Shown: in pieces, positions 13,201 to 29,071 of the stretch | How the letters are laid out: every line of letters starts with the position of its first letter | Numbering within the stretch: position 1 is the first letter of the stretch | Assembly: GCA_902800345.1 (NCBI GenBank) | Contig: CADCDO010000010.1 | Span: 1 to 64,000, forward strand | DNA: 64,000 bases | Direction: 5' to 3' | Source of the DNA: Fibrobacter succinogenes | GTDB taxonomy: Bacteria; Fibrobacterota; Fibrobacteria; Fibrobacterales; Fibrobacteraceae | Notes under the pieces: model-generated | What the model was told of the DNA's origin: nothing | The model's database searches: none | The model's input: only the letters and a program-made list of their open reading frames with translations | Position numbers and translations under genes: made by a program

Positions 13201-13563
13201 GTCGATGTCCAAAGAATGTTCCACTTCAAAATAGATATGCGTGGAGTTTACAGACCCGTGAAAGTTTTGTTCTCTTCCGAGTCTGTAAGACTGCTGCATG
13301 GGCGTCAGGGGTATTTTTTTTTCGACATCGGCACCTTTGCCGAGCTTTTCTTGAATCTTGTCAACCAGGTCACCGATGGTTTCTGCTTTCACGAGGTCGA
13401 GCATTCCGAATTCTATGCTCAATTGCTTTTTGACTTCTCCCAGGAATCGGAACATCTGTATGGAATCTTCAAAAACTTCGTACAGCGATGTTTCCGTCTG
13501 AACGTTCTGTTTTAAAATTTGATTGACAATTTCGAGAATTTCTTTTTGCGAAAATTGCGACAT
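7219..13563 (-). CDS. NRPS: ACP-Cy-A(Cys)-PCP-Cy-A(Cys)-PCP
   Basis: A 2114-residue synthetase and the last gene of the operon (AAGGAG upstream of ATG). Domain order: a loading carrier with Ser34 in FEDSIQM; Cy1 starting PLTPMQQSY, with ELMFVDGLS near 215; A1 with YTSGSTGVPKG near 665; PCP1 LGGDSIKAQ near 1047; Cy2 with DLMVCDGDS near 1240; A2 with YTSGSTGKPKG near 1685; PCP2 IGGDSITLM near 2077. The specificity pockets read D-L-Y-N-L-S-L-I-W-K in both A domains (FDLSVYD, WNSVP, L.SGD, SLGGATEASIW/AAIW), the code known for cysteine in yersiniabactin and pyochelin synthetases. Cy1 has Glu where the DxxxxDxxS motif has its first Asp. No TE is present. I infer that it loads the acyl starter and forms the first two thiazolines, like HMWP2 with an acyl rather than salicyl start. 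Confidence 0.93.
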   Translation of the reverse strand: MSQFSQKEILEIVNQILKQNVQTETSLYEVFEDSIQMFRFLGEVKKQLSIEFGMLDLVKAETIGDLVDKIQEKLGKGADVEKKIPLTPMQQSYRLGREQNFHGSVNSTHIYFEVEHSLDIDKAEECFRQLIEKHEALRAFVEDEDQCILAKDVSKNFRIARETIPEADIQQHLEQKRLQAQTEMRDLGKWPLFEITNISTEKRNIATVDLELMFVDGLSAQGLASEFLSLYHEGVLPTFDFENNPQYIDWIKSRKDNAKHDSDAEFWRKLEAGIPAAPKLPVTASRNNEANICKRMQNVFSKDTLRNMEIIARKNGVTSSVVLFYLYLKTLARFSENRKFSVNITMLNRPYGVEGMDHIIGDYTSNVIFDFDNAQIAQLPLREALQTIRDCMYERIDHSAYEGVEVIRDLIRQKRIDNENPMPIVFTSMLFGRLPEGKGLQVSYVQTQTSQVSIDNQICKTHDGGLMISWDYLEKIFTPNTIAEMFRYYSESIEAFSKTGECTAQAPQFEERVIAYNSTKKEFDIKHPIEYLQKSFVKCRDRIALKNGVMTTMTYGELEDSVRKAMYMLKMQGVNCNDSIAILSQKNFSTVIAILAVMGVGATYIPVDDKWPEDRKEYIVKNSNCKLLVNPQKLVEAPTRERADFAPNPNLDATAYVIYTSGSTGVPKGVSISYAAMMNTILDINERMGINESASILGLSSYCFDLSVYDLFGSLIAGAELDIAKDIRETDEIKRFVDSSKNILWNSVPAGMELFIDSLDEFYVNRELKNVLMSGDWIPVSLPARIHKHFPEAQIYSLGGATEASIWSIYFPIVHVDPSWQSIPYGYPLANQTIYVLNESLEICPPEIQGEIYIGGVGVAQGYANSEEKTKAAFIDHPKFGRIYKTGDFGRFSANGYVVFLGRKDNQVKVGGYRIELGEIEQRMNSLNQVDASIVLLDPSKHIVAFYTGKQTDKDVFKKELSQFLPAYMVPHRFVHLDEMPLSANGKLDRKSLLQTLIANTNESVETKSPIVLTETQSAIIDIWKSVLDLKEIDCSLDFFELGGDSIKAQRIAQRIDQKFGIRVPFVSVLNTPNAKEFAETVEDKIVSKNETAPTENADTGVSGKGAEFPMTGVQLAYLNGRNDHFELGKYNAHYYFEIDSQYSVAEIENAIRKVVKKHDAFRAIFLPNGTQKVLTEVPDYKVEVIHCSAAERESESLKIRNELSHHIYKHDQWPLFTFKAIDCGDTNRIIFVSFDLMVCDGDSMQIFFSDLGRILRKQPFEERIGYSYERYVRDLSHSRDEKRYEEDKAYWLERLRNFPEYPHVPLAQKISDCTDYTITRKQDVICKKTWSKFKEVAKAHRVSPSALLCTIYAKVLERWSNQRDMVLNLTAFERKPFHKDVEKIIGDFTKLLPLALSMNEKDLWKQAADVQNRIVDGLDHLSYDGTEIMRELAKSKNQFGKAILPVVFTCVLFDAPENYYEVLGKLRYSISQTPQIFIDNQIAEMGKKLYVTWDVVKEIFDPTIMDQMFHDFVENIRYIANGESETCFPEINLVWERYNPEVKPAPKKTLHGLVNSAMPLFKNRTAVVGKDSSLTYVELDSLSNRIANFLQEKGVVRRDRVAVLGERIPEIIASILGILKAGGVYVPIDVSYPKERIDFIMQDGNCKCLLKKSYLEAKGIQNYSDKPLPMINTPEDEAYIIYTSGSTGKPKGVIMQHGATANTIIDVNERLSLKENDALIGISSICFDLSVYDIFGALSCGAKLALVSDARDMSEVCQILTTQNVTIWNSVPVLFDMAMKHRISANDSGNLSLRKVLLSGDRIPLDICTTAKNAGCSADLVSLGGATEAAIWSIIYPFNKVRPEWDCIPYGYPMKNQTFYVLDEELKLCPPEVQGDLYIGGVGLAKGYNNDPEKTSKAFIKHPQLGRIYRTGDLGKLKTEGFIEFLGRSDTQIKLNGFRIELGEIEAAIMHTGLVSRAVAALKDVPGSGKQIIAYVLGASVENAESSIKAEISKTLTGYMIPSRIVTMDSFPLSANGKVDKKQLPIPEISIATVMPASATNENISVEEKAMLEIWQSVFENPSITLDDDFYSIGGDSITLMKLVDKIALDLKKTVNIDQILQAKNIREFAFLI

Positions 13564-13572
13564 GGAATCTCC

Positions 13573-15189
13573 TTAGATTTTACCTTCTTTGTAGGCGGCG
13601 TACAGTTTTTCTTTGGCGATTTTTCCAGTGCCCGTGAGAACCAAGGATTTTAGCGGGATAACCTCTTTTAACCCAAAACCCATTTCCGAAAAAATGAATT
13701 CCTTGAGCGAACTGACATTCACTTTTTCGGGCTCACCATATTCAACAAAGAGATAAATGTAATTGGTGGAGGCTGCGGAATCGTTTACGCCGCAGGCAGC
13801 GCAGCGGTAGCCAAATTTTGATGTGACAACTTGTTCGATATCGCGCAAGTAAATATTTTTGCCGTGGATAAAGAACATGTCTTTTTTACGGCCCACAACG
13901 TACAAAAGTCCATTGCTCAAAAAGCCGAGATCGCCTGTATCGAGCCATCCGTCAACAAACATGTCCGAAGAATCTTTGTTCAAATAGCCTGTGCAGATGT
14001 AATCGCTGAACACCTGGATGCTTCCCACGGTGTTGTCGGGAAGAACTTGGTTTTCCTCATCGCAGATACGAATTTGCATTCCGGGAATGGCACGACCTTG
14101 GCATACGATATCCTTTGCGTTTTCACGAAGGCCTTTCATATCAAAATCAATACCGGATGTTACCTTATTGATGTCTAGTTCAGGATATTTGTGATCCATG
14201 TTGAATGTGACAGCGCCCAAAGCCTCTGTCAGTCCGTAAAGAGGAACGATGGCGTGTTCGTGCATTCCGAATTTGACCATATTCTGGGTGAATTCGGCAA
14301 GAACTTTTTTTGAAAGAGGTTCGCCGCCATTCAGGATAAAGTCAACGCAGGACAAGTCCCAATTTTCGCTGCCATCCATAGCCTTTAAAAGGAGCGGGTA
14401 AGCAAAATTCGGGGCGGAAGTCTTTGTGGCGCGAGTCTTGCTGACCGCATCAAACCAAGATTTGGGATTCTGGATAAATTCGGCAGCATCCATATGGACA
14501 GCACCAGTCTTATAGTACATCGGGATTGTAATCAGCGTGACAATACCAAAAGCATGTTCTAGCGGGAGCCATTGCAACCAAGTATCCTTTGAACTAGTCT
14601 TTAATGCAATATTCAAATTCTTGAGCATCAATAGGAATCTTTCGTTTGACATCATGACGCCTTTCGGATCAGATGTACTTCCTGATGAATACAGCACAAG
14701 AGCAAGTGCTTTCGGGTCGACTTCAACGTAATCGATTTCTGCTGGCAAGTCTTGTGGGTATTCCGTAATTTCTTCGGGAACGACAATCAAACGTTTTGCA
14801 TCGCATTCCTTCCAGAAAAATTTGATGAATTCAGCCGTTTCGGTATCCGCAATAATGGCGGCCTTGGGATTGTCGCTTGCGACGCGGATTAGACGCGTTA
14901 CATGGTCCTTGCTGCGTGCCGCTGTCAAAAATACAGGCGCAATCCCCATGCTCAAAAGTGCAAAGAAATTTCCCATGAAGGCTTTTTTTGAAGCTCCGTT
15001 AATCTGGAAAATGACCATGTCGCCTTGCTTTAGCCCTGCGTTTTCAAAGGTACGCCTTGCGCAGAGAATTCGCATCTTGAGTTCGGCTTTTGAAACATTT
15101 GTGGCAATTCCGTTTTTCATCAAAATGATTCGTGAATCGCATTCAAGGTATTCCTTCAATTTTTGGTTAAGCGAGGGCAAGTTTTCCAA
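13573..15189 (-). CDS. Acyl-AMP ligase, FAAL-like, predicted starter-unit activating enzyme
   Basis: A 538-residue adenylate-forming enzyme. Motifs are VLYSSGSTSDPKG (ATP loop), WLPLEHAFGIVT, APNFAYPLLLK, LYGLTEA, DTGDLGFL, GRKKDMFFIHGKNIYLRDIE and a C-terminal GTGKIAKEK with the likely catalytic Lys. WLPL..., APNFAY and KNIYLRDIE are typical of fatty-acyl-AMP ligases rather than of salicyl/DHB-AMP ligases (YbtE, PchD, EntE). I infer that it adenylates a fatty or other carboxylic acid and loads it onto Ser34 of the NRPS encoded immediately downstream (10 bp away). The start is TTG at 15189, supported by AGGAG nine bases upstream; the reading overlaps the end of the PPTase gene by 23 bp. The substrate cannot be predicted from sequence. 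Confidence 0.8.
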   Translation of the reverse strand: MENLPSLNQKLKEYLECDSRIILMKNGIATNVSKAELKMRILCARRTFENAGLKQGDMVIFQINGASKKAFMGNFFALLSMGIAPVFLTAARSKDHVTRLIRVASDNPKAAIIADTETAEFIKFFWKECDAKRLIVVPEEITEYPQDLPAEIDYVEVDPKALALVLYSSGSTSDPKGVMMSNERFLLMLKNLNIALKTSSKDTWLQWLPLEHAFGIVTLITIPMYYKTGAVHMDAAEFIQNPKSWFDAVSKTRATKTSAPNFAYPLLLKAMDGSENWDLSCVDFILNGGEPLSKKVLAEFTQNMVKFGMHEHAIVPLYGLTEALGAVTFNMDHKYPELDINKVTSGIDFDMKGLRENAKDIVCQGRAIPGMQIRICDEENQVLPDNTVGSIQVFSDYICTGYLNKDSSDMFVDGWLDTGDLGFLSNGLLYVVGRKKDMFFIHGKNIYLRDIEQVVTSKFGYRCAACGVNDSAASTNYIYLFVEYGEPEKVNVSSLKEFIFSEMGFGLKEVIPLKSLVLTGTGKIAKEKLYAAYKEGKI

Positions 15190-15844: not shown

Positions 15845-17299
15845 TTACAAAACCTCTTCCCATTTTTCAGTGAACAACCGCTTAAGTAAATTCAAGTTGG
15901 TAGCAAACATTTGTTTTAATGTCTCAAAAGCAAATGCGGGTTCTGCGTAATCCCAGTTGACCGAAAGTTTTCCGTCAAAGTTGGTGACTTGGTAATCCAA
16001 CACGACTTGCGGAGTCTTGCTTAGAGCATAAATTTGGTGCAAACCGTTGGGCACATCGCTGTTGGACTTTTGTCCGTTTTCAAGGACACAAGTGATGACA
16101 ATGGGCATCTGTGCACGCATAGGCGAAAGACCTTCCTTGAATTTGAGAATCTTTGTACCATCGTATGTATGGAAGCGTACAAGTTGCCACAAGTCCTTTT
16201 GTACGCTTTGTACGCACTCTAGAAAATTCTTGCATTTTTTTGAAAGCGTGATGAATGCGATGTTGGTAAAATCGCCCACGACCGAATTGATATCTTTATG
16301 AAGCGGGAGCCTATTGAAAATGGTAGAATTAATAGTTAGCGAATCATTTTTACTAAAACCGAGTAACGACTTGAGATAAGCGGTGCTGATGACTGCGGCT
16401 GGTGTTGTGCGATATTCGCGGCATCTCTGCTGCAATAATGTGAATTCGTCTATCGATAATTCTCCAGAAATTCTTGCAAATCGATGATTGTGAATTTCAG
16501 AAAGCGGCTTTGCATACGGCAAGTCCGGCTCGCAAACGAGCTCGTTTACTTTCGATTTCCAGAAAGTTTCTGCTTGCGAGTAATCCTGTTGCTTTTCGAA
16601 TGTAATTAGATCATTGCAGTAGTCCTTGAAACCGTAATCAATCCATTGCACAGTTTCACTGCGATAAAGTTTGAACATCTGCGAAAGCGCGATTTTAGCA
16701 CTCCAGGCGTCCATAATCATGCAGTCGAAATCGAAATGCAAAATATCCCTTGTGTTAGGAACTCGTGAAACACGCATCGTAAAGAACGGCCACTGATTTA
16801 ACGGATAAATGTGGTGGCTCCATTCCTTGCGCTTTTCAAGTCTTTGCTCGGACGATTCCAATTCCACGACTTCAATGGAATACGTCGGGACTGTTTCAAG
16901 AACGCGCTGTGTCCCATTTGCAGAAATTACAAGACGGAGAGCGTCATCGTGAGTGACGACATCGTTCCAAGCATTTTCTAAGCGTGCGACGTCGATTTTT
17001 TCGTCGATTTCCAGCTCCATGTAATAATGGGTATTGATGCCACCTAAATCGTAAACTGTGTCGCGACCGACAAGGTATGATTTTTGAATGGGCGAGAGCG
17101 GAAATGCGTTTGACTCTTCTTCCGCTCGCTTTTCGAGATGCGCAATGATTCCGGCCTTGTTAGCCTTTAAACATTCCTTGTCTTCGGCACTGAGCGCTCC
17201 GTTTGCGGCACGGAACTTGAGCTTGCCTTCGTCTAGCCAAAGCGTTACGCCTCGGTTTGCGAAACTGTCAATAAGTTCTGCTACATTCTGAAAACTCAT
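15845..17299 (-). CDS. Stand-alone NRPS cyclisation (Cy) domain with TubC-like docking domain
   Basis: A 484-residue protein with an N-terminal docking module of the TubC_N type (RGVTLWLDEGKLKFRA, ALSAEDKECLKANKAGIIAHL, about residues 15-57). One heterocyclisation domain follows, from about residue 65 (FPLSPIQKSYLVGRD). The catalytic motif DCMIMDAWS (about 191-199) matches DxxxxDxxS exactly. There is no A, PCP or TE domain, so it must act in trans. The A-MT-PCP protein at 26345 lacks a Cy domain, and the two together would complete a fourth cysteine module. ATG overlaps the preceding stop (TAATG). Confidence 0.88.
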   Translation of the reverse strand: MSFQNVAELIDSFANRGVTLWLDEGKLKFRAANGALSAEDKECLKANKAGIIAHLEKRAEEESNAFPLSPIQKSYLVGRDTVYDLGGINTHYYMELEIDEKIDVARLENAWNDVVTHDDALRLVISANGTQRVLETVPTYSIEVVELESSEQRLEKRKEWSHHIYPLNQWPFFTMRVSRVPNTRDILHFDFDCMIMDAWSAKIALSQMFKLYRSETVQWIDYGFKDYCNDLITFEKQQDYSQAETFWKSKVNELVCEPDLPYAKPLSEIHNHRFARISGELSIDEFTLLQQRCREYRTTPAAVISTAYLKSLLGFSKNDSLTINSTIFNRLPLHKDINSVVGDFTNIAFITLSKKCKNFLECVQSVQKDLWQLVRFHTYDGTKILKFKEGLSPMRAQMPIVITCVLENGQKSNSDVPNGLHQIYALSKTPQVVLDYQVTNFDGKLSVNWDYAEPAFAFETLKQMFATNLNLLKRLFTEKWEEVL

Positions 17300-20200
17300 T
17301 AGGCGTTCTCCTGAATGTTCCTGATAGACAATTTTTCGGCGAGATCTATGGCGTATTCTTTTGATGTGAATGCGGTGAAGTGGTTTCCCTTGAGCTGTTC
17401 GTACTTTATTTCACCAATGCAGAGGTCATCCCATTTTTGGAACAGGAATTTATCATCATTCTTGAAAATACTGTTGCTGTTGTCTGCCTTCAAATAACGC
17501 AAGTCGCCAAAATACGGAGTCGGGTTATAATTGACCATGACGTTGAAGTTTTGGTCAAATGTATTCTTGATTCTAGCGAAAGCTTCATCGGTCATGCTCT
17601 TGCCGAAATCGCCCGAATACTCCTTGATTTTCTGGAATCGTTCGCTTGCAGATAATGCGTTGAAGATCCGAATGGCGGCTGCATCGGGTGACTGGCTGAT
17701 GATTTTTTCGAAGTCGCTTTCGTCAATGATTTTTTTCTTTGTTTCTTCGATGTAGCGGTTCATCAAGAAAGTGATGTCTTCGAATTTGAAACCAACCTTC
17801 TGCGGATCAATGCCAATTAATGTGGCAAAGAAAAAGTCCTTCATGTTCTTTTGCTTGATTTCAAATGGCAAACGAGCGCCTTCGATGATGGCGAGGTCCG
17901 CTATTTCGATTTCAGCATTTTCGAGACGTTCCGCAAGTTCCAATGACAGTTTTCCATTGAAGCTATAACCGATAATCTGAACTTTCTTGACGCCTGTTTC
18001 TATAATCTTGTCTGCAAATTCCTTGGCCAAGACGCTTGCAACTTCAGCCTCGCCAATTTCAAAGAACTGTTGCGTATTCGAAAGCTTGAACGTGAAAATT
18101 TCGCCTTCGTCCTGCTTTTCCATGAGCGGAATGATCTCATGGTACATTTCGTTGTTCCAAAGAACTGTTGGGAGCAAAATTCTAGCGCAATTGTTTTTCG
18201 GCTTGCCAATGCGCTGGAGCTGAATGAGTTCTCCCGAGTCGCCTGATTCTTCGGTGACTTCGTTTTTCAGGAACTGGGCAACTTCCGTGATGGTCGGGAA
18301 ATCAAGCAGCTGCTTTAAAATGGCGTCAAACGTCTTGTCCGAAGCGAGTTCGTTACGGATAGTTGTTGCCATCTGAGCCATGAGCAATGAGTCTGCGCCA
18401 AAGTCGTAGAAGTTGTCGTCCAAGCCAATGGAATCGATGTTTAACGCCTTGACGGTGATTTCAATAAGTCGGCTTTCTATTGATTTTTCGTTGCTCTGCG
18501 AGCTTTCGAATGCGTCTGCATAGTGCTTGAGTGCTTGCTGGTCAACGCTCCCGTTTGCGGTCAAAGGCAACTTGTCAAGAATTTGAATGGACGTATTCTT
18601 TTCAGGGCAGATATCATTCAGAATCAACTTTACAGAAGATTCAGAAACTTCATCCTTGTCGTACTTGAATTGTTTGACGTAAAGGTATCCGCCCAGCATT
18701 TTTGCCTTTGCATCATCTTGCGGGAATGTCGTTGCGTTTACAAGACCATCTTTTTGACGCAACAATTCAATCCAATCTTCTTTAGGCAAGAACATGTGCT
18801 TTTCTCTAATCTTGTCTACGGGCTTATCCATCATCAACGCTTGCGATACGGATATCGATGCAGAATCGTCCCCCACTTCTTCGATAAAGAGATAGCCGCC
18901 TGGGACTAGAGTTTTCTTCATTTGTTCTAGCGTGTAGTCTAGATCTATGGAGTTGGCCATCGCACCGCCACATAGAATAATGTCGACACTGTTTTCGGGA
19001 ATCCCTTGACTTTCAAATTCTTCGTTAAAGTCCAATTGCGTAAAAACCATCGCTGGATCTTTATGCGTATATTCTCCAGCCATGGGGAAAAATTGTGTGA
19101 ACTTATCCGTGAAATTATATGTGAAGGCGAAACCTGATTCTTTAAGACCTGCGAACGCCTGTCTTGTGATTTGCCCTGTACCAGCGCCCAATTCGAGAAC
19201 TCTCCAAATTTTTTTGGAATCCGTTGCCATAACCTGCTTCAAGAATTCTACGAGATGCTCGTTGATAATCTTGTAGCTGTTTTGGGCCTGTACAATATCA
19301 GACCAATTTTGCAACGCATTATTTTCTTGATTGTCGCTGTAGTTCTTGTAGACAAAATCATTTGGATCGGCGTTGCCAGCTAAAACTTCGCCAAAGTGAA
19401 TTCCGTTTTCTTTGAGATAACGAACGTATGGTTTCGAAGCGATGTGGCTATCGGTATTTTGAATGACCTCATCCCATTTATTTTCGTTTTGTTCAAATGT
19501 GATTTCTTGTGAAATCTTGAATTTATTTCCGCAAGATGCGATGTTGCCATTTTCTAAAAGGACATTTATCCATTCTTGCGCATGGAAACGGAATTTTTCC
19601 GGTATGGCTTTTTCGAGTTCTTCCTTGGTAAAGTCCTTACCGTAAACGAGAATGTTGTTTTGCAAAAGTCCAAGGAGAATCGAGTCTGCGGCAGTCTTTT
19701 CAATGTTTCTGTAGCTATTGCGAATTTTTTCCCAATCGAAGTTTTCATGTGTCGCAGAAATTTTTTCATCCGTCTGGGTTACGTTTTTAGTGAAAACTTC
19801 TTCACATTCATCAATTCTATTTTTCTGCTTTTTGCGCGGTTCCACAGCAACGATAAAGTTGTCCTTGTTGCTGCCCAGGAATGCGGTCGCTTTTTCAATC
19901 GGCAAACTGCTGACAAGAACTTCTTCGATCTGCGTGAGGTTTAGCGCGCCCGTCTTAGCCTTAGATTCTTCGAAGAACTTGAGGATGTTCTTGCGGTCGA
20001 TTTTGCCATTTGCAGAAAGCGGCAATGCGTTGAATTCCTGGATGTAGCCCGGATGCATGTAATGCAACAAGTATTTGTCGAGGTGTTCCTTGAGCTTTTC
20101 GTTATCAATGATTTGTTTGTCGCTCTTGACTTGTTTGACAAAGAACAGCACATGCAAAAGATCGAGCGCACTGTCGCTTTCTGGGAACGAACTCAGGTTA

Positions 20201-23200
20201 ACGTTCTTTTCGCCATGCAAGAGTTTTTCGGTCCATTTGCTTCGAGACATTTTGAGCTGCTCAAAAATTTGGTTCTGGCGTTCCAAATCATCGGACGGAA
20301 CATCCATCAAGAACGCCTGCGTGATGGTAATCCATGCTGCAAGTTCGTAAGACTCGAGGAACATGAAATGTCCGCCTGGAACGAGAACGTTTTCAATTTG
20401 TTCCAATGTCTTGCTGAAATCAATAGCGTTGTCCAAAACGTATCCGCCAAAGACTATATCAAATGAATTTGGCTTCAATCCCTGCTTGACAAAATCTTCA
20501 TTCATGTCGAGCTGCTTGAAAACGAGCTCTGGATAATCCTTGAACATTTCTGCCGCAGTCGGGAAGAAATGCTTTAGGTAATCGGTGAAGTAGTATTCAA
20601 ACTTGTGGCCCTTTAATGTGGGCAACAGGTATCTTGTTGCTGAACCTGTGCCGGCACCAATTTCGAGAATGCGGATGGGACGATTGGGCTCTTGGTCCAA
20701 AAGTTTTTTCAGATATTCTGCCAAGGTCTTATAGGCGATGACCATTATCTTGTTCTTGACGTAGAGCGAGTCAACATAACGGTACTTGTCGCCTTCTTCG
20801 GGGTAAAGGAATTTACCTGGATCAACATTTCCTTGGGCGATTTCTGCGAGATGGTCGCCGTTGAGCTTGACATATTCAAGGAAATCTTTTGAAATGTATT
20901 CGCCATTCCAAACTTCGTAGGCGTTCTTCCAAAGTTTTTCCTTTTCGCTTTCGGAAGCGTCAATGCGGCAAATGTAAGATTCGCCTTGCTGTTCGATGAA
21001 CTTTTCTGCAAGCAGGTAGCCGAGCCATTGCGTGACAAGCCAATGGTATTTTGCAATAACCGGAGCTTTGATTTCATCAATGGTGTATGCCTTATCCTTT
21101 TGGAAAACGCCCATCTTTTGTAGCTCGAACAAGATGGTGTAAGCGCTGGCTCTTTCTTCGGCCTTGTAACCTTCTTCAACTTGTTTCATGTCAATTTCGC
21201 CGATGCAGTCTTGCATGAACTTTTCGACAGCGTTTTTGCGTTCAGCGAATTTTTGTTTGTTAGCGTTGATTTCGTTTGCGGTTGCATTTTCGGCGACAAT
21301 TGCGGAATAGATTTCGCGTTTGTCAGCACTTACGACGGCAACAGCTTCCTTGATCGCGGGGAAGTCCTTCAAGACGTTTTCGATTTCGCCGAGTTCAATA
21401 CGATGGCCGCGAATCTTTACCTGCGTGTCTTCGCGACCGAGAAATTCAATTTCACCGCCGGGGAGATAACGACCCATGTCGCCGGTCAAGTAAACTTGTT
21501 CATCCGTTTTCGGGAGAGTCACAAACTGCGCGGCAGTGCGTTCTGCATCTAGGTAATAGCCAAGTGCAACGCCGTCACCACCGAGCGCAATTTGCCCTGC
21601 AACCATTGTCGGACACGGCTGCAAATTGTCATCGAGAATGTGCATGGTTTGGTTTGCAAGTGGGCGACCGTACGGTAAAATTTTGAGACCATCGTTTGGA
21701 TGGTAACGATGGTAGTTGGACCAGATGGATGCTTCCGTAGCACCGCCAAGGCAAATGACATCGACGCCGGGAGCGGCCTTGCGGATTCTTTCAGGCATGT
21801 CAACTGGAATCCAGTCACCGGAGAGGAATACTTCGCGGAGCGGGAGCGGTTCTGCAGAGTTCTTGCTTTCGACAAAATTCATGAGCATCTTCATCAATGC
21901 GGGCACGGTATTCCATACGGTAATGTGGTGCTTGTGAATGAGAGTTTCCCAAACTTCGGGGTTCATGTAATCTTCGGCGGTCGGGTAAATAAGCGTGCCG
22001 CCACAGGCGAGAACACCAAAGAGATCATAGACGGAAAGGTCAAAATTCAACTGCGAAAGTCCGAGAACAGCATCGTCTGCGGTAACGCCAAAACGGTCAT
22101 TCATGTCGTCGATGGTGTTCATTGCGCCTTTGTGCGTAATCACGACGCCCTTGGGTTCGCCCGTACTTCCGCTGGTGTAGATGATATAGGCGATGTCGTC
22201 AGGAGTGCGCTTCGGGAATCTTGAACAATCGACTGCAAAATCGTTGGCCGTAAGAGTATCAACATTGATGGTTGTGATTTCGCTTTCGAGGAGAGCTTCG
22301 TCGCTAGAAATGCCGATGGCCACTTTTGCGCCCGTCTTCTTGACAATCTTTTCGGCGCGGCCCTTTGCTTTGGCGGCTGCAATAGGCACATAAATGGCAC
22401 CAGCATACAGTATGCCAAATACCGATACAACTTGCCACGCTGATTTTTCCATCAAGACAGGGACGCAATCCTGGGGCTTTACTCCGCAGCTGATTAATTG
22501 ATCCGCCAAAACCTTTGCGCGAGCGTCGAGTTCTTCGAATGTAAATTTTGTGATGCCGTCATCAATAGCGATTTTTTTCGGCGTGCGCTTGACGCTTTCG
22601 ACAAAGTCGTCCTGCAACATTCGCACGTTCCAATCTTTTCGCGTGTCGTTTGCGGCCTTGCGTTCTGCTTCATCGCAGGCGGGGAGCGCAATTTCTGCAA
22701 CTTCTTCCCAATCTCCATTTTCTTCAGCAAGGGCGAGCAAACGCTTTTCGAATGCTTCGAACATGGAATCCAAAACGCCTTCCGGGAATACGCCTTCGCG
22801 ATAGTCCCAGTTGACTTGCAATCCGAAAGCGCCATCCATCACTTGGCAGTCGATAAAGGTTTGTGGCGTTTGGGAAATGCCTCCGACAAAGTCTCCGCGT
22901 AATGGTGTCCCCGAGTCGGCGAGGCCAATCGCGCTTGTATAGACGATCGGCATCAAAAGCCCTGTTTTTTTACTTTGTCTAGAGATTTCGCGCATGACTT
23001 CGACACCGCTGAAAAGGCGGTTGTCCAAGTCCGCAAAAAGCTGGCCGTTTATTTTGCGGGTACGAGCCAAAAAATTTTCTTTTGCAGCGCAATCGACTTC
23101 GAGCAGACTGAGCGATGTGAAATCGCCAACGATGTCCATGACTTTTTCATGGAGCGGGAGTCTGTTCAAAACGGTCATGTTGATGCAGAAATGCTTGTTG

Positions 23201-24189
23201 CGGCTCCACTTGGCAAGTACATCGGCGTAGCACGAAAGAATCGGAACAGTCGGCGTGAGGCCGTATTGCTTGGCGCGATTTTTCATGCGGTTCCAGGTGT
23301 TTGCAGGGATTCTCAAGAACTTGCGTCCAAAGGCGTCCTTTGCTTCGGAGGCGGGGAGTTTCGGCAATTCCGGTGCATCAGGGAGATTTGCAATTCGCTC
23401 CATCCAGTATTGCTTTTCTTTTTCGTACTGTGGAGTTGCCTTGAGTTTCTTTTCGGCAATCAAGTAATCGCGGAAAGAAAGTTCTTCTTCGCCTGTGACG
23501 GCGATTCCGTCAAAATAGGCGGCTTCAAATTCCGCAACGAGTTTCCAAATGCTTGTCCAGTCGGCGAGCAAAAATTCAATCGAAAAATGAAGAATGGCGT
23601 TATCGTTGTTGCGGCTTACGGCAAGCCCGAACATGGGCCATTTCCCGACAGTGTAGGCGCGGTTACCCATTTCCTTGCGAAACTTTTCAAAATCGTTTGC
23701 TTTTTCAGGATGCTTCACCAAGTCCCATTCCGGAATTTCCAATTCGGGAACATCTTTCATCACTTGCTGATAACCGCTTTCGTTGATGACCGCGTGGAGC
23801 ATGTCGTATTTGCGCGTAATAGCGTTCCAAATGTTGCGAACTTGTTGCGTTTCGAGTTCAGCGTAACGAATCTCAAGATAAACGTGGCAAGCGACACCGC
23901 CGTATTCAAAAGTCTTGCTGCGTCCAAGCAAATAAGCAGATTGTACATCGGTCAACGGAAATGGTTCAAAACGATTGGTACGGTCGATGACAATGGCGAC
24001 TTTACTGTTGTCACTCATTTCGCTCAAATACTTTATCAGTGCTTCTTTATTTGCCTTGAGTTCTGCGAGTACAGCGGGCGTCATCGCTTCCTTAGAAGCC
24101 TTGTACTTGATTTTCCCGTTTTCCGTCCACAAGTGAATTCCGTTTGCTTCAAAACGGTTGACCAAATTTTGCATGTTCTTGTCTGTCAT
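17299..24189 (-). CDS. NRPS: TubC dock-Cy-A(Cys)-MT-MT-PCP-TE, terminal synthetase
   Basis: A 2296-residue synthetase. Order: TubC-like docking domain (1-58; GIHLWTENGKIKYKA); Cy from about 75, with EFLLADWTS near 203; A with YTSGSTGEPKG near 672 and a D-L-Y-N-L-S-L-I-W pocket (cysteine); after motif A8 (RIELGEIE form, near 931) a methyltransferase with SAM loop LEIGAGTGSATR near 1178, then A10 LPLSANGKIDRK near 1394. A second copy of this A-tail/MT unit follows: IEEVL near 1410, LELGAGTGQITR near 1669, A10-like LPLTANGSVDQQ near 1878. Then PCP FGADSLLMA near 1935 and TE with GYSFNG (Ser near 2078, GxSxN rather than GxSxG) and GNHFTAF (His near 2270). It resembles PchF, except for the tandem MT duplication. 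I infer that it adds, methylates and releases the last unit. Confidence 0.92.
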   Translation of the reverse strand: MTDKNMQNLVNRFEANGIHLWTENGKIKYKASKEAMTPAVLAELKANKEALIKYLSEMSDNSKVAIVIDRTNRFEPFPLTDVQSAYLLGRSKTFEYGGVACHVYLEIRYAELETQQVRNIWNAITRKYDMLHAVINESGYQQVMKDVPELEIPEWDLVKHPEKANDFEKFRKEMGNRAYTVGKWPMFGLAVSRNNDNAILHFSIEFLLADWTSIWKLVAEFEAAYFDGIAVTGEEELSFRDYLIAEKKLKATPQYEKEKQYWMERIANLPDAPELPKLPASEAKDAFGRKFLRIPANTWNRMKNRAKQYGLTPTVPILSCYADVLAKWSRNKHFCINMTVLNRLPLHEKVMDIVGDFTSLSLLEVDCAAKENFLARTRKINGQLFADLDNRLFSGVEVMREISRQSKKTGLLMPIVYTSAIGLADSGTPLRGDFVGGISQTPQTFIDCQVMDGAFGLQVNWDYREGVFPEGVLDSMFEAFEKRLLALAEENGDWEEVAEIALPACDEAERKAANDTRKDWNVRMLQDDFVESVKRTPKKIAIDDGITKFTFEELDARAKVLADQLISCGVKPQDCVPVLMEKSAWQVVSVFGILYAGAIYVPIAAAKAKGRAEKIVKKTGAKVAIGISSDEALLESEITTINVDTLTANDFAVDCSRFPKRTPDDIAYIIYTSGSTGEPKGVVITHKGAMNTIDDMNDRFGVTADDAVLGLSQLNFDLSVYDLFGVLACGGTLIYPTAEDYMNPEVWETLIHKHHITVWNTVPALMKMLMNFVESKNSAEPLPLREVFLSGDWIPVDMPERIRKAAPGVDVICLGGATEASIWSNYHRYHPNDGLKILPYGRPLANQTMHILDDNLQPCPTMVAGQIALGGDGVALGYYLDAERTAAQFVTLPKTDEQVYLTGDMGRYLPGGEIEFLGREDTQVKIRGHRIELGEIENVLKDFPAIKEAVAVVSADKREIYSAIVAENATANEINANKQKFAERKNAVEKFMQDCIGEIDMKQVEEGYKAEERASAYTILFELQKMGVFQKDKAYTIDEIKAPVIAKYHWLVTQWLGYLLAEKFIEQQGESYICRIDASESEKEKLWKNAYEVWNGEYISKDFLEYVKLNGDHLAEIAQGNVDPGKFLYPEEGDKYRYVDSLYVKNKIMVIAYKTLAEYLKKLLDQEPNRPIRILEIGAGTGSATRYLLPTLKGHKFEYYFTDYLKHFFPTAAEMFKDYPELVFKQLDMNEDFVKQGLKPNSFDIVFGGYVLDNAIDFSKTLEQIENVLVPGGHFMFLESYELAAWITITQAFLMDVPSDDLERQNQIFEQLKMSRSKWTEKLLHGEKNVNLSSFPESDSALDLLHVLFFVKQVKSDKQIIDNEKLKEHLDKYLLHYMHPGYIQEFNALPLSANGKIDRKNILKFFEESKAKTGALNLTQIEEVLVSSLPIEKATAFLGSNKDNFIVAVEPRKKQKNRIDECEEVFTKNVTQTDEKISATHENFDWEKIRNSYRNIEKTAADSILLGLLQNNILVYGKDFTKEELEKAIPEKFRFHAQEWINVLLENGNIASCGNKFKISQEITFEQNENKWDEVIQNTDSHIASKPYVRYLKENGIHFGEVLAGNADPNDFVYKNYSDNQENNALQNWSDIVQAQNSYKIINEHLVEFLKQVMATDSKKIWRVLELGAGTGQITRQAFAGLKESGFAFTYNFTDKFTQFFPMAGEYTHKDPAMVFTQLDFNEEFESQGIPENSVDIILCGGAMANSIDLDYTLEQMKKTLVPGGYLFIEEVGDDSASISVSQALMMDKPVDKIREKHMFLPKEDWIELLRQKDGLVNATTFPQDDAKAKMLGGYLYVKQFKYDKDEVSESSVKLILNDICPEKNTSIQILDKLPLTANGSVDQQALKHYADAFESSQSNEKSIESRLIEITVKALNIDSIGLDDNFYDFGADSLLMAQMATTIRNELASDKTFDAILKQLLDFPTITEVAQFLKNEVTEESGDSGELIQLQRIGKPKNNCARILLPTVLWNNEMYHEIIPLMEKQDEGEIFTFKLSNTQQFFEIGEAEVASVLAKEFADKIIETGVKKVQIIGYSFNGKLSLELAERLENAEIEIADLAIIEGARLPFEIKQKNMKDFFFATLIGIDPQKVGFKFEDITFLMNRYIEETKKKIIDESDFEKIISQSPDAAAIRIFNALSASERFQKIKEYSGDFGKSMTDEAFARIKNTFDQNFNVMVNYNPTPYFGDLRYLKADNSNSIFKNDDKFLFQKWDDLCIGEIKYEQLKGNHFTAFTSKEYAIDLAEKLSIRNIQENA

Positions 24190-24190
24190 C

Positions 24191-25264
24191 TTAAACCTCT
24201 TCGCTGTATTTATGGATTTCTGCCGACGGGATGTATTCGCTGTTGCCTTCTGGGTGGATTAATTTTGCAAATCCGAAAATGTTCGTGATTTCGGACCATT
24301 TCTGTGAACACAAAAGTTCTCGTTGCGCTAACGGGGCGAGTTTTACCTTTTGGTCTATCATTTTTGAAAATTCAACAATGTTGTCTGCAATACCTTGCTT
24401 CCAGTCATCGAATAGCACGTGCATAAAATCTTTGGCTTTATAGTTTCCCAAGGTTTCCATTGTCAATTCTTTCAAGTAAGGCGGGATTTCATTACGCTTT
24501 TCGGGATTGTACAAGTATTTGGGAACGTACATGCGCGGCTTCCAAAGTACAGGGCCGAAAGTATCTTCGAGTATCAAGCGACCGGTTTCATAGACGATGG
24601 CAAAATTATGCAAGAGATGTGCATGGTTGTCGCGGTCGTCCGTATTCACCTGGTTGTTATATTCGATGGTGATGGGCGTGTCGCCAAGCTTTCCCGTGAG
24701 AATGTCGAAGGGACCAACGCATTCTGTGATGTGTTCGACTTTCAAATTGTAAATGGAGGGGAGAATGCGGGAGAGTATATCAATTGCAGGGAACGAAACT
24801 TGCGGACCGAACGCAGCCTTGATGTAAAGCGGCTTTTCGTGCTTATTCAATTCTTGAGCTACGCGGATGAATCGTGCTACTTCAGGAAGTTTCGGGTAAA
24901 GATCGCAAGTCTTGAAATAAACACCGTTCTTTTTGGCAACGCGATAAGTTTCAGTAAGGTCGCGCGGATGGATGGGCTGTTCCTGAAGAACGTGGATTTT
25001 TTTTTCCATGAACTTGCAGGCGAGTTCTGTACCGATGCCGCCCACCGTTCCAGAACTGATGACAACACAAGCGAAATCGATTTTTGGAATTTGTTCGAAC
25101 TCTGTGAAAAGCGGGATGCCATAAGTCTCGGCACATTTTTTGGAGCGTTCGCTTCCTTTGCCGTAAAGTCCGACTAATTCAAAATCATCTTTTAATAACT
25201 GTTGCAGAGCGTTGATGTAGAACTGTCCGAAAGTGCTTCCGCAGACAACAACTCGTTTCTTCAT
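24191..25264 (-). CDS. Thiazolinyl imide reductase (Irp3/YbtU/PchG-like)
   Basis: A 357-residue NAD(P)-dependent oxidoreductase of the Gfo/Idh/MocA type. The N-terminal dinucleotide loop is VVVCGSTFGQFYINAL, followed by FELVGLYGKGSERSKKCAETYGIPL, ACVVISSGTVGGIGTELA and HVLQEQPIHP. These signatures are characteristic of YbtU/Irp3 and PchG, which reduce one thiazoline ring to a thiazolidine on the assembly line. It lies between the two NRPS genes with two bases to the downstream start. A single such gene suggests that one ring (or one position) is reduced. Confidence 0.88.
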   Translation of the reverse strand: MKKRVVVCGSTFGQFYINALQQLLKDDFELVGLYGKGSERSKKCAETYGIPLFTEFEQIPKIDFACVVISSGTVGGIGTELACKFMEKKIHVLQEQPIHPRDLTETYRVAKKNGVYFKTCDLYPKLPEVARFIRVAQELNKHEKPLYIKAAFGPQVSFPAIDILSRILPSIYNLKVEHITECVGPFDILTGKLGDTPITIEYNNQVNTDDRDNHAHLLHNFAIVYETGRLILEDTFGPVLWKPRMYVPKYLYNPEKRNEIPPYLKELTMETLGNYKAKDFMHVLFDDWKQGIADNIVEFSKMIDQKVKLAPLAQRELLCSQKWSEITNIFGFAKLIHPEGNSEYIPSAEIHKYSEEV

Positions 25265-25268
25265 TTTC

Positions 25269-26348
25269 TTAAATTTCTCCCTCTATTTCGGTTGTAAGCA
25301 TGTCCTTGATTTCGCATGAAAATTCAGGTTGATTTGCGATGAGCGAATCGATGATGGGGGTGGCCAAATCGCTTTCGCCAAGTAAAATGGTTCCGCAAGA
25401 CTTCTTTTCTTTGGCAAAGCAGAGCGTAGCGGCACCGGCGCTAACGCCTGTCATCGGTGACGGACCGAGCCCATGAATGGTGAGCTTGAATTTTGCCGGC
25501 GCATCGACTTTAACGCCTTCCATAACGCATAGGTAGAAGGTATTTTCCTTGATACCGAAGGTATCGAGCTTACTTGCGGTGCAAAGTTTTTTAATGGTCT
25601 CGTCAGGATTTTGTTTGTACTGATGCCTTGCTGAATTCATAATTTCAATCATACGCTCTCCGCTAAGACACATGTGAAACCGCGCTTCATCAAGATTCAT
25701 TTTGCGCGTGACGGCTTCTGCTTCCCCATCGAAAAATGGAAACATCTTGTTGATTGAAATGACACTCTTTAAGTCTTCGGAATAATCATTTGACGAAGGG
25801 ACGAACGGAAGGATTTCGCCATTTTTCCAATAGACCATGGTGCGGTTGTTACTGTTGTGAAGGCTGTCGATAAAATCGTTAGCCGCTGTGTACGAAAATG
25901 CGCCAAGTCCGCCGTAGTAAAATTCCAAAGAATTGACATGATCAAACTTTTTAGCGAGATATTGCGGAATGAGCCCAGAAAGTCCCGGGATGCATCCTGC
26001 GCCATAAACAATTGAAACTCCGGATTCTTTTCTTTTGAATCCTTCAATTCCAAGATGCAAAACGGGCGTGTTTTTCGCTTCGGCGATTTCATCCATCTGC
26101 GTCGTTTGTGATTCCGAAAGTTTTGCGCAATCGAGAATGATTTCGCAGCCATCCATGAACCGTTCGACGCTTTCCTTGTTTGATACATCGACTTTCACCC
26201 ATTCTGCATCGTTCCATTCCGAGCGTAATTCGCTTGGGGCTTTTTCGATGTTGCGTCCGCCAATGCGAAGGCGATAATCAGAATTATTTCTGATGAAGCG
26301 AGTGGCCCAAATGCCAACAGCGCCGTAAGCGCCAAGAATTCCAATCAT
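25269..26348 (-). CDS. Saccharopine dehydrogenase-like NAD(P)-binding protein of the metallophore cluster
   Basis: A 359-residue protein beginning MIGILGAYGAVGIWATRFI, a Rossmann dinucleotide loop as in the saccharopine dehydrogenase/trans-acting enoyl reductase superfamily. It continues with RIGGRNIEKA, ILDCAKLSES and an internal GAGCIPGLSGLIPQYLA segment. It overlaps the upstream NRPS gene by four bases (ATGA) and precedes the imine reductase by four, so it belongs to the pathway. Lysine metabolism is not suggested by context. I infer a second redox step on the chain or a tailoring reaction; the substrate is unknown. Confidence 0.7.
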   Translation of the reverse strand: MIGILGAYGAVGIWATRFIRNNSDYRLRIGGRNIEKAPSELRSEWNDAEWVKVDVSNKESVERFMDGCEIILDCAKLSESQTTQMDEIAEAKNTPVLHLGIEGFKRKESGVSIVYGAGCIPGLSGLIPQYLAKKFDHVNSLEFYYGGLGAFSYTAANDFIDSLHNSNNRTMVYWKNGEILPFVPSSNDYSEDLKSVISINKMFPFFDGEAEAVTRKMNLDEARFHMCLSGERMIEIMNSARHQYKQNPDETIKKLCTASKLDTFGIKENTFYLCVMEGVKVDAPAKFKLTIHGLGPSPMTGVSAGAATLCFAKEKKSCGTILLGESDLATPIIDSLIANQPEFSCEIKDMLTTEIEGEI

Positions 26349-29071
26349 ATTTCTCCCTCTTCGATATCGCCCAAGGCGTTGATGCGTTCTTCAAAAATTT
26401 TTGCGAGATTGTTCAGTTCTGCATTTTCGAAAATTTCACGGAGCGATATTTCGATACCATATTGCATGTGTATTTTTTCTAGGAATCGCGTCGCCAAGAG
26501 ACTGTCGCCACCGATTTCAAAGAAGTTGGCGTGTCGGTCAACTTTCTCCAGTGAAAGCAATGACTTCCAGATTTCAGCGAGGTCTGCTTCACGTCCTTCG
26601 TAATTCTCGTTCACATCGGCGGAACTTGTCTTTTTCAAAAATGCGGTAATTGTTTTGCGATCGACTTTAGCATTGGCGGTAAGCGGGAACTTCACGAATA
26701 CTTCAGTCCGTGACGGAATCATGTATGGGACGAGATTTGTTTTCAGGTACTCGTCAAATTCACTGCCAAGAATTTCCTTGGCATCAAAAGCCTTCTTTGC
26801 CACGATTGTTTGTACAAAGTGTGAATTATTTTCGAGAGAAATTGTATCGAACGGTAATTCCCTAAAAATAGATTCCCATTCTTCGTCTGTTAAAAGTGAT
26901 GTAAAACGTCGCAAGCGGGTGTACTTGGCAAAACCGTTTTCTAGCACGGCTGAACTTACGATAGCGACTGGATCGAAATTTTCAAAATCAAGCGCCATAA
27001 ACGTTCCACCTTTTCTTAAAATCATGTAGGCGAACGAAAGCGCATTGGCAGGATTGTTGTAAGTGTGCAAAAAGCCGGCGTCAACAACAAGATCGAAAGA
27101 TTCTAAATCTTGCACACCACCATTTAAATTAAGCTTCTTGAATTTTAGGAATTTTCTCCATTCATCCAACGAACTGCGCGCAGAATCAAGCATTCCACTA
27201 GATTCATCATATAACGTAATTTCCATTCCATTCTTTTCGAACGACTTCAAAAATTCACGTACGCCAAGACCGGAACGTGCGTTCAAAAATGCGATTTTCT
27301 TAGCTCTTTCGTGAATCGCCGCAGTAATAACTTTATTGATGAACGATTTAAACGGAATGCTTTCAGAAAGCAATTTTTCCGGAGCGAATAATTCGTTTCC
27401 TAGAAGGTCTGTTTCTGGACGATTGCCCCTAAGAACATTTTCCAACAATTCAATATTTTCATTGCTGTTCAGTTTCTTCGAAAAATCAGATTCTACAGGT
27501 GGACGGATGCTCTCGAATCCGTTTTTGAAAAGCCAATTGTTCCATAAAGCAAATGCGTTTTTTACATTTTCCGGGACGGTCTTGATATTGGAACGAATCG
27601 CATAAATAAACGATGCTACAGCATTTGTACGGTCATGCAAAGATTCGTCTGCATAATTATCGATGTATTTGTAATCATATTTTGCGATTTTTTCTTTGTT
27701 GAGTGCTGGGATAACTGCAGCGACAATTTCTTTTTTCGCTCCATTCTCAACGACCACAGCCGCGGCATTTACAATATTTGTTTTTTTCTTGATGACGTTT
27801 TCGATTTCACCGAGTTCAATGCGGTAACCGCCAAGTTTAATTTGCGTATCCAAACGTCCTAAAAATTCGGAGTTGCCATCAGGCATCATGCGCACTTTGT
27901 CGCCCGTTCTGTACCAGCGTTCTCCATTCTCGACGGGGAAGCGTTCTTGTGTGAGGTTCGGCTGGTTCAAGTAGCCTTCGGCAACGCCAATGCCACCGAT
28001 CCAAAGTTCTCCAGCATCTCCGGTAGCGCATTCCTTACCGTTTTCGTCCATGACCTTGATTTTTTGGTTTAGCAGCGCCTTGCCATAAGGAATAGATTTC
28101 CATTCCGGTTTCAATTCGTTTACTTCGTACCAAACGGACCAGATGGAAACTTCTGTAGCACCACCTAAGGAAATAAAGCGACATTCAGGCCAAAAGTTCT
28201 TGGTTACGCCAAATAACGGAAGCGGGATCCAGTCGCCCGAAAGCATAACTGTTTTCAACGGAATTTCATTTGCTTCATCGCCTGCGACAATCGTGAACAT
28301 TTCAAAAAGTGCAGGGACCGAATTCCACAAAGTCACTTTCTGATCGCTTGCGATTTGTTTCCAGACATTCGCTTCTTTCTTTGTTTCTTCAGAGAGGACT
28401 ATGACCTTTCCGCCAACGGATAGCATTCCGAAAATGTCGTAAACAGAAAGGTCAAAGTCCAATTCAGAAATGGCCATACAAGCGTCATTTGCAGTTACAT
28501 TAAAACGATTGTTTATATCGCGGATGGTATTACTTACACCGCGGTGCGAAATCATCACGCCCTTGGGAACGCCTGTCGTACCGGATGTAAAAATGATATA
28601 GGCAAGAAGCGATGAGTCTTCGATGATTTCATCAATTGACATCGGCTCGCTTTGCAAGGCCTCTTCAATTTCGACAACGTTCCATGAGGAATATTCTTTG
28701 CGAAATTGTTCCGCATGGATTTTATCTGTAATTATGCCTGATATTTTTGCAGAATCAAAAATCTTGTGCATTCTCTCCATCGGCTGGTGAATGCCGACGG
28801 GGACGTAGGCCGCGCCGACAGCCTGAATGCCTAGCGTGCAGAATACTTGATTCATGCCTTTCGGAAGGACTATGGCGACATAATCTTTCGGTTTGACGCC
28901 AACCTTTTTCAAGCATGTCGCGATTCTCAATGCGCTTTCTGAAAGTGCTCCGTATGTTTTGAAATTGTAGGTACCATCGGATTTGCGCGAAACGAGTGCC
29001 GTTGCATTCGGAATTTCAGACGCCTTTGCAAAAACGGCAGAATGGATGCATTCAAGATTGTGAGTGAACAT
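26345..29071 (-). CDS. NRPS: A(Cys)-MT-PCP without condensation domain
   Basis: A 908-residue synthetase. It starts directly with an A domain (FTSGTTGVPKG near 164, FDLSVYDIFG near 208). The pocket residues D-L-Y (FDLSVY), N (LWNSVP), L-S (VMLSGDW) and L-I-W (SLGGATEVSIW) again read as cysteine. After A8 (GGYRIELGEIE, near 417) there is an insertion of about 300 residues at the place of an MT domain. Its SAM loop is degenerate (FLNARSGLGVREF near 600, in place of LEIGAGTG), so methyl transfer is doubtful. A10 (FPLTANAKVDRK near 800) and PCP (IGGDSLLATR near 858) follow. It has no Cy/C domain and no TE; the free Cy protein at 15845 is the natural partner. Confidence 0.9.
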   Translation of the reverse strand: MFTHNLECIHSAVFAKASEIPNATALVSRKSDGTYNFKTYGALSESALRIATCLKKVGVKPKDYVAIVLPKGMNQVFCTLGIQAVGAAYVPVGIHQPMERMHKIFDSAKISGIITDKIHAEQFRKEYSSWNVVEIEEALQSEPMSIDEIIEDSSLLAYIIFTSGTTGVPKGVMISHRGVSNTIRDINNRFNVTANDACMAISELDFDLSVYDIFGMLSVGGKVIVLSEETKKEANVWKQIASDQKVTLWNSVPALFEMFTIVAGDEANEIPLKTVMLSGDWIPLPLFGVTKNFWPECRFISLGGATEVSIWSVWYEVNELKPEWKSIPYGKALLNQKIKVMDENGKECATGDAGELWIGGIGVAEGYLNQPNLTQERFPVENGERWYRTGDKVRMMPDGNSEFLGRLDTQIKLGGYRIELGEIENVIKKKTNIVNAAAVVVENGAKKEIVAAVIPALNKEKIAKYDYKYIDNYADESLHDRTNAVASFIYAIRSNIKTVPENVKNAFALWNNWLFKNGFESIRPPVESDFSKKLNSNENIELLENVLRGNRPETDLLGNELFAPEKLLSESIPFKSFINKVITAAIHERAKKIAFLNARSGLGVREFLKSFEKNGMEITLYDESSGMLDSARSSLDEWRKFLKFKKLNLNGGVQDLESFDLVVDAGFLHTYNNPANALSFAYMILRKGGTFMALDFENFDPVAIVSSAVLENGFAKYTRLRRFTSLLTDEEWESIFRELPFDTISLENNSHFVQTIVAKKAFDAKEILGSEFDEYLKTNLVPYMIPSRTEVFVKFPLTANAKVDRKTITAFLKKTSSADVNENYEGREADLAEIWKSLLSLEKVDRHANFFEIGGDSLLATRFLEKIHMQYGIEISLREIFENAELNNLAKIFEERINALGDIEEGEI

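Follow-up and report, generated by a model that had tools for sequence, protein, structure and literature searches.

A conserved tandem of methyltransferase-bearing adenylation-domain tails in the terminal synthetase of a putative Fibrobacter thiazoline metallophore cluster

Why would the last module of a nonribosomal peptide synthetase (NRPS) carry two methyltransferases (MTs) inside a single adenylation (A) domain, and do both of them work? This question is raised by a gene at positions 17299-24189 (minus strand) of a 64,000-nucleotide stretch of DNA from the rumen bacterium Fibrobacter succinogenes, contig CADCDO010000010.1, positions 1 to 64,000 (referred to as the window), which encodes the terminal NRPS of a putative metallophore pathway. 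A preliminary description of this DNA had proposed a tandem duplication of the A-domain tail, together with its embedded MT, at 18490-21420. The motifs on which that proposal was based are all present and in frame in the terminal NRPS, and the proposed range lies close to the two units that we delimited (21429-19975 and 19974-18520). Here, we describe the two units, their history and conservation, and the reactions that they may carry out; the second MT has an intact cofactor site and an altered acceptor site, and the pair probably methylates different spots of the metal-binding molecule. The features of the terminal NRPS are as follows.

17299-24189, minus strand: terminal NRPS, 2296 amino acids, an open reading frame (ORF) with Pfam matches to TubC_N, Condensation, AMP-binding, two methyltransferase stretches, PP-binding, and Thioesterase
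21400-22602, minus strand: A-domain core with Cys-type specificity residues D L Y N F S L I (AMP-binding / AA-adenyl-dom)
about 19975-21429, minus strand: unit 1 (u1), from A8 to A10 with embedded MT1, A10 lysine K1396 present
20119-21192, minus strand: MT1 core, residues about 1000-1357, with E1176, D1203, D1228, D1253, and E1279 (Pfam Methyltransf_12 and others)
20632-20667, minus strand: MT1 loop binding S-adenosylmethionine (SAM), LEIGAGTGSATR, residue 1175
20431-20433, minus strand: MT1 acceptor-site position Asp1253 (VLDN), from alignment
19990-20025, minus strand: first A10 motif LPLSANGKIDRK, residue 1389, unchanged in seven orthologues
18520-19974, minus strand: unit 2 (u2), the duplicated tail around MT2, without A8 motif and without A10 lysine
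18658-19734, minus strand: MT2 core, residues about 1486-1844, with E1666, D1695, D1720, A1745, and E1771
19162-19197, minus strand: MT2 SAM-binding loop LELGAGTGQITR, residue 1665
18955-18957, minus strand: MT2 acceptor-site position Ala1745 (A/V-M-A-N-S), from alignment
18535-18570, minus strand: A10-like motif LPLTANGSVDQQ, residue 1874, lysine replaced, differing among orthologues
18268-18471, minus strand: peptidyl carrier protein (PCP) domain (GADSL; PF00550)
17302-18222, minus strand: thioesterase (TE) domain (GYSFNG; PF00975, score under its curated cut-off)

Two homologous units within one A domain

The terminal NRPS has the domain order TubC docking, heterocyclization (Cy), A core, first C-terminal A subdomain (Asub) with MT1 and A10, second Asub-like segment (Asub') with MT2 and an A10-like motif, PCP, and TE. 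The specificity code of the A core was read by eye from the A4-A5 region and compared with a published table (PMC3672683).

Each about 480 residues long, u1 and u2 lie head to tail and align from end to end, with 138 of 466 positions identical (30%; BLASTP, 216 bits, E 3e-69). Their global alignment score was 557, compared with a mean of 16 for shuffled sequences (standard deviation 7, maximum 41 of 200). Each unit consists of a complete Asub with an MT inserted, starting with IENVL at residue 936 in u1 and with IEEVL at residue 1421 in u2. An AlphaFold2 model of u2 (mean pLDDT 93.4, pTM 0.93) was nearest in fold to C-methylating MT (C-MT) domains (CurJ, DszA, and citrinin CMeT) and also matched the pyochelin synthetase PchE, while the MT1 core matched the CurJ structure 5thy (E 6.5e-25). 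In an AlphaFold model of the tandem the order of helices and strands is repeated twice; the relative placement of the units in this model is unreliable (pTM 0.57). The proposed duplication is thus supported by alignment and repeat order, as well as by the phylogeny given below, and the two findings that could have overturned it, a lack of homology between the units or a loss of SAM-binding residues from one of them, were both absent.

The copies are not equivalent, however. In u1, the A8 motif GREDTQVKIRGHRIE stands before MT1 and NGKIDRK, an A10 motif with its lysine, after it, as in the MT-interrupted A domains of the PchF type. This arrangement is not found in u2, which has no A8 motif and ends with NGSVDQQ, a segment that varies among orthologues. 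Because the A8 motif and the A10 lysine are kept by unit 1 only, u2 is unable to act as a second A-domain lid. The picture of two matching units therefore has to be corrected in this respect, and also in its history, as the duplication is old and lopsided, with a longer stem for u2.

Origin of the duplication

In a tree of 51 MT domains, u1 and u2 were sisters (support 98/97), and they fell within a class of terminal stuffed MTs from Paenibacillus, Brevibacillus, Sporomusa, Lachnospiraceae, and Peptoniphilaceae. Their clade comprises MTs without the histidine discussed below, includes PchF of Burkholderia cenocepacia (a pyochelin-type N-MT), and is separate from a class of stuffed MTs with the motif VLH. 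The stem of u2 measured 1.48 changes per column versus 0.89 for u1. Recruitment of u2 from a reductase-fused MT was considered and rejected (AU p 0.018 for this grouping). The best account of these sequences is an old, lopsided in-frame duplication within the terminal stuffed-MT class, which took place in or before the Fibrobacter lineage.

Conservation and distribution

The full tandem was present in seven of 111 genomes of the same family, this one included, one of the seven coming from another genus. It was also found in the F. succinogenes metagenome-assembled genomes RUG12439 and RUG12208, which are probably the same genomes as two of the seven (G089 and G092). Across the compared stretch of 1873 amino acids, the seven genomes showed no indels at all. 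The dN/dS ratio of u2 was 0.06-0.09 in pairs with a useful dS, similar to the values for unit 1 and the TE; a single higher value, 0.20, came from a pair with a dS of 0.056. Judged by these ratios, u2 is under strong purifying selection. The earlier suggestion that one MT might be a decoy, taken to mean a decaying copy, is therefore disfavored, and we rejected it on the dN/dS values and the absence of indels.

In two further members of this genus, G022 and G088, the terminal NRPS is 1427 amino acids long, its uninterrupted A domain is followed directly by the PCP, and neither MT is present. Such sister clusters were not part of the preliminary description. The G022 cluster has the same gene order as that of the window, with 83% identity for the first NRPS, 88% for the Cy protein, 82% for the A-E-PCP protein (E, epimerization domain), and 78% for the terminal Cy-A core. 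In Fibrobacter, two MTs were counted in seven genomes, none in two, and one in no genome, and the tree of A cores inside the genus is a star.

The terminal NRPS gene is also mosaic among the Fibrobacter genomes compared (the window and L005-L011). G025 and G101 differ by 16% in the A core and by 2% in u2 and in PCP-TE, while the window and G025 share 95% in PCP-TE and 72% in u2. Segmental recombination within this gene is a likely source of such a pattern.

Outside the family, a scan of GTDB species genomes returned at least 79 loci from Bacillota, Actinomycetota, Pseudomonadota, Cyanobacteria, and others, two Fibrobacter loci among them. Among the matches listed, every stuffed A domain outside Fibrobacter held a single MT, and where an ORF gave two full MT hits, these belonged to separate modules; the scan may miss rarer cases elsewhere. 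When 297 Paenibacillaceae, 250 Negativicutes, and 130 Peptoniphilaceae genomes were searched specifically, each match likewise had one MT per stuffed A domain.

Cofactor and acceptor sites

Class I SAM-dependent MTs were recognized by a glycine-rich loop, an acidic residue after strand 2, and the Asp of motif II. These features were found in u1 (E1176/D1203/D1228) as well as in u2 (E1666/D1695/D1720), and they are invariant in the seven orthologues; neither unit of any orthologue has lost the loop, the Asp following it, or the next Asp. The initial impression that both SAM loops were intact thus extends to every orthologue.

The acceptor sites were compared at the column of H1204, the catalytic histidine of the PchE epimerase (PMC8807600). 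This column holds His in epimerase-type domains, including two Pseudomonas PchE-like proteins and the A-E-PCP protein of this cluster, and in the VLH class of stuffed MTs. It holds Asn in B. cenocepacia PchF and in reductase-fused MTs, and Glu (VLEN) in the Bacillota class nearest u1. In the alignment, Asp1253 occupies it in u1 and Ala1745 in u2, so neither unit has the Asn of a PchF-type N-MT. The His of the His-Glu pair of polyketide-type C-MTs such as CurJ is likewise absent from both units; the Glu of the pair, 26 residues past the H1204 column, is retained in both (E1279 and E1771). The acceptor loop is fixed for each unit in every orthologue, reading VLDNAID or VMDNAID in u1 versus GAMANSID or GVMANSID in u2, and W1286 of u1 corresponds to S1778 in u2. 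The class has 104 conserved columns, of which 86 are retained in u1 and 56 in u2; among those lost from u2 are the A8 region and acceptor-loop residues (VLENA to AMANS, Trp1286 to Ser1778). From these comparisons, u2 looks like an MT with an intact cofactor site and a rebuilt acceptor site, still apparently able to hold the methyl donor. As the His is missing and the SAM loops are intact, both units look like MTs rather than epimerases.

Comparison with known systems

Two MTs in one A domain, a precedent that the preliminary description had not drawn on, have been reported for ColG (columbamide) and LynB3 (lyngbyapeptin), where they likewise sit within one interrupted A domain of a single module (PMC11355689, PMC10127204). 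ColG, with the order A-Ms-Mb-A, carries out N,O-dimethylation, a division of labor between the two MTs, and the MTs of LynB3 resemble different families (PMC11355689, PMC10127204). In those proteins the MTs stand back to back in one interruption, unlike the Fibrobacter MTs, which are paralogous and separated by an intact A10 and the start of a pseudo-Asub, the whole Asub-MT-Asub including A10 being repeated. A pair of MTs per A domain is therefore already known; new here is that the MTs are paralogous and the A-domain tail is repeated with them.

The terminal Cy-A(MT)-PCP-TE arrangement for Cys, with a PchG/Irp3-type reductase nearby, resembles PchF of the pyochelin pathway. In the PchF type (B. 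cenocepacia, L025) there is a single MT, whose acceptor position is Asn, in contrast to the two MTs with Asp and Ala seen here; its system has a salicylate-AMP ligase in place of the Fibrobacter loading enzyme, which is like a fatty-acyl-AMP ligase (FAAL). The PchE epimerase shares an MT-like fold stuffed between A8 and A9 (PMC8807600); its catalytic His and broken SAM loop occur in neither u1 nor u2.

The nearest whole-protein homologues, at 40-43%, are terminal NRPSs of Paenibacillus, Brevibacillus, and Sporomusa (L033-L037, L039, and L088), whose stuffed MT reads VLEN where u1 has VLDN. These clusters share the gene order A-E-PCP, reductase-like gene, imine reductase, terminal NRPS. They differ in having a single stuffed MT, the second MT, where present, being fused to the reductase (Asn, MLNN). 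Relatives in Brevibacillus, Paenibacillus, Lachnospiraceae, and Streptomyces chattanoogensis combine a stuffed MT with such a fusion. The imine reductases of Brevibacillus, Paenibacillus, and Lachnospiraceae, 35-46% identical to the Fibrobacter enzyme, bear a C-terminal Asn-class MT; those of Sporomusa and Fibrobacter have no fused MT.

The sorangibactin and mupirochelin clusters (PMC10127202, PMC10080011) are similar in that they encode several MTs as well as a pair of reductase-type genes, and their terminal NRPS contains an MT. Unlike in Fibrobacter, their extra MTs are separate proteins (SrbF/G and MchF/G) and their starter is salicylate.

What the two methyltransferases may do

We consider about evenly balanced the chances of a reading in which an ancient in-frame duplication was followed by division of labor, the two MTs acting on their own acceptors on the terminal PCP, most likely the nitrogens of two reduced rings. 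As the sequences show, the A-domain tail of the last module, an Asub with a stuffed SAM-dependent MT, was duplicated in frame. Unit 1 kept the features of the adenylation lid (A8 and the A10 lysine); unit 2 lost them and kept the fold, the SAM site, and Glu E1771 of the acceptor pair, with a rebuilt acceptor loop. According to our proposal, MT1 and MT2 would both methylate the chain held on the single terminal PCP, at separate acceptors that are most likely the nitrogens of two thiazolidine rings, after the action of the thiazolinyl imine reductase(s) and before release by the TE. The second methylation, which would be carried out by a reductase-fused MT in most Bacillota relatives, would fall to unit 2 in Fibrobacter. 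Sorangibactin, with two consecutive N-methyl-thiazolidines and a cluster encoding two separate MTs, is a precedent for such a product (PMC10127202). More tentatively, the copy may have been neofunctionalized so that paralogous MTs serve one PCP and two rings, one of them from the previous module, which would bring together in one protein two methylations that in relatives are split between the synthetase and the reductase, with the pair gained or lost as a block between closely related clusters.

Several observations weigh against this proposal. The acceptor position of u2 holds neither His, Asn, Asp, nor Glu, and u2 retains far fewer of the class-conserved columns than u1 (56 versus 86 of 104). 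A single stuffed MT is enough for Sporomusa, whose reductase is unfused, and the second reductase-like gene of the window (25269-26348) is weakly annotated, under the Pfam cut-off. The order in which u1, u2, and the Peptoniphilaceae domains split is not fully fixed (AU p 0.075 for u1 with Peptoniphilaceae to the exclusion of u2). In addition, a review notes that MT activity could not be detected in an A domain engineered to carry two M domains between a8 and a9 (PMC11355689). As a characterized member of the VLE/VLD class was looked for and none was found, N- rather than C-methylation is something we infer.

Some of these points would fit a u2 that no longer methylates and serves as a conserved structural or docking pseudo-MT with a pseudo-Asub, for example in holding the PCP or recruiting the reductase, leaving MT1 to perform the sole methylation. 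Besides the Ala at the acceptor position, the loss of A8, the A10 lysine, and nearly half of the class-conserved columns, and the inactive engineered insertions (PMC11355689), the placement of u2 between Asub and PCP agrees with such a role. We consider it unlikely, however: although u2 differs by up to 31% among the seven orthologues, the entire SAM site, with E1666, the glycines, D1695, and D1720, is the same in all of them, and in the PchE-type E domains, which have ceased to use SAM, this loop is broken.

If both units do methylate, their common ancestry and the two preserved SAM sites could mean that they share an acceptor, for redundancy, rate or dosage, or dimethylation of one atom. This is improbable in view of the acceptor loops, which differ in a fixed manner in every orthologue, as do W1286 and S1778. 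Moreover, a second methyl on an N-methylthiazolidine would give a quaternary ammonium, which is chemically less likely. The rebuilt loop of u2 favors a different acceptor. That acceptor could be a carbon, with MT1 N-methylating a thiazolidine and MT2 C-methylating the alpha-carbon of a thiazoline as in yersiniabactin, or the reverse. The fold is nearest to C-MT domains (CurJ, DszA, and citrinin CMeT), and C-methylation of the last thiazoline has been predicted for MchB (PMC10080011); with the C-MT His absent from both units and both in the non-His clade, we give such a split little weight. Least credible of all is that one unit is a PchE-type epimerase, so that the module methylates and epimerizes. 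Stuffed MT-like epimerases do occur in such clusters, the 908-amino acid A-E-PCP protein of this one included, which also means that an E-type domain is already at hand. We rejected this mechanism for u1 and u2, in which the essential His is Asp and Ala, respectively, and both SAM loops are intact, unlike those of E domains. Division of labor between two active MTs remains the reading that we prefer.

Whatever its exact role, the doubled stuffed MT arose in nature and is maintained by selection, and it should be useful to study because the engineered doubling showed no detectable MT activity (PMC11355689). Together, the clusters with no MT (same genus), one MT (Bacillota), and two MTs form a trio in which the tolerance of A domains for inserts and the division of work between tandem tailoring domains can be tested. 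The finding also suggests that Fibrobacter has a family of thiazoline metallophores not yet described.

The gene cluster and its likely product

The terminal NRPS is encoded together with the following genes.

24191-25264, minus strand: thiazolinyl imine reductase (Irp3/PchG type) with no fused MT (TIGR01761, 247.7 bits, cut-off 188.8; PF21390)
25269-26348, minus strand: second putative NAD(P)-binding reductase, matching saccharopine-dehydrogenase-like genes of relatives
26345-29071, minus strand: A-E-PCP protein, 908 amino acids, with a stuffed MT-like domain that has a broken SAM loop and the His
15845-17299, minus strand: stand-alone TubC-Cy protein (DxxxxDxxS)
7219-13563, minus strand: NRPS of 2114 amino acids, T-Cy-A-T-Cy-A-T (T, thiolation domain), with Cys-type codes
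13573-15189, minus strand: FAAL-like loading enzyme

In total, the cluster encodes four Cys-type A domains (codes read by eye) and four Cy domains, along with a phosphopantetheinyl transferase, a type II TE, an ABC pair, a TonB receptor, and TonB. The Cy domains, Cys A domains, thiazolinyl imine reductase, TonB receptor, and ABC pair are those of a thiazoline siderophore cluster, and they point to a thiazoline or thiazolidine metallophore as the product. A search of the literature on Fibrobacter siderophores found nothing on this cluster. The loading enzyme most resembles fatty-acyl-AMP ligases of the MbtM/FadD32 kind, unlike its counterparts in pyochelin-type clusters, which are salicylate-AMP ligases. 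Only one chorismate-binding gene was found in the genome, which makes a salicylate cap unlikely. Judging by its sequence, the stuffed domain of the 908-amino acid protein is the PchE-type epimerase of the cluster. This protein has no Cy domain of its own, and the TubC-Cy protein is encoded separately, a split module whose two parts probably work together.

Reductases with a C-terminal PchF-like Asn-class SAM-dependent MT were seen in L030 (a plasmid of Anaerococcus prevotii), L033, L035-L037, L039, L088, and L092; these fusions apparently couple ring reduction and N-methylation in one protein. The imine reductase is 94-97% identical among the tandem clusters and 67% identical in the MT-less G022, a drop exceeding that of the neighboring genes, which may reflect a different acceptor. 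The loading enzyme shows 59% identity in G022, compared with 81-95% in the tandem clusters.

Two motifs of the terminal NRPS also vary. Its Cy motif (residues about 205-215) reads ExxxxDxxS (EFLLADWTS), with Glu replacing the first Asp, a form common to the Sporomusa, Paenibacillus apiarius, and Brevibacillus relatives. The nucleophile elbow of the TE (about 17970-17950 in the window) is GYSFNG here, TYCYIS in the MT-less G022 (L125), GHCMGG in Sporomusa, and GYCSGG in B. cenocepacia. This exchange between Ser and Cys, for which the Cys-type TE of sorangibactin offers a comparison (PMC10127202), may go along with different release chemistry.

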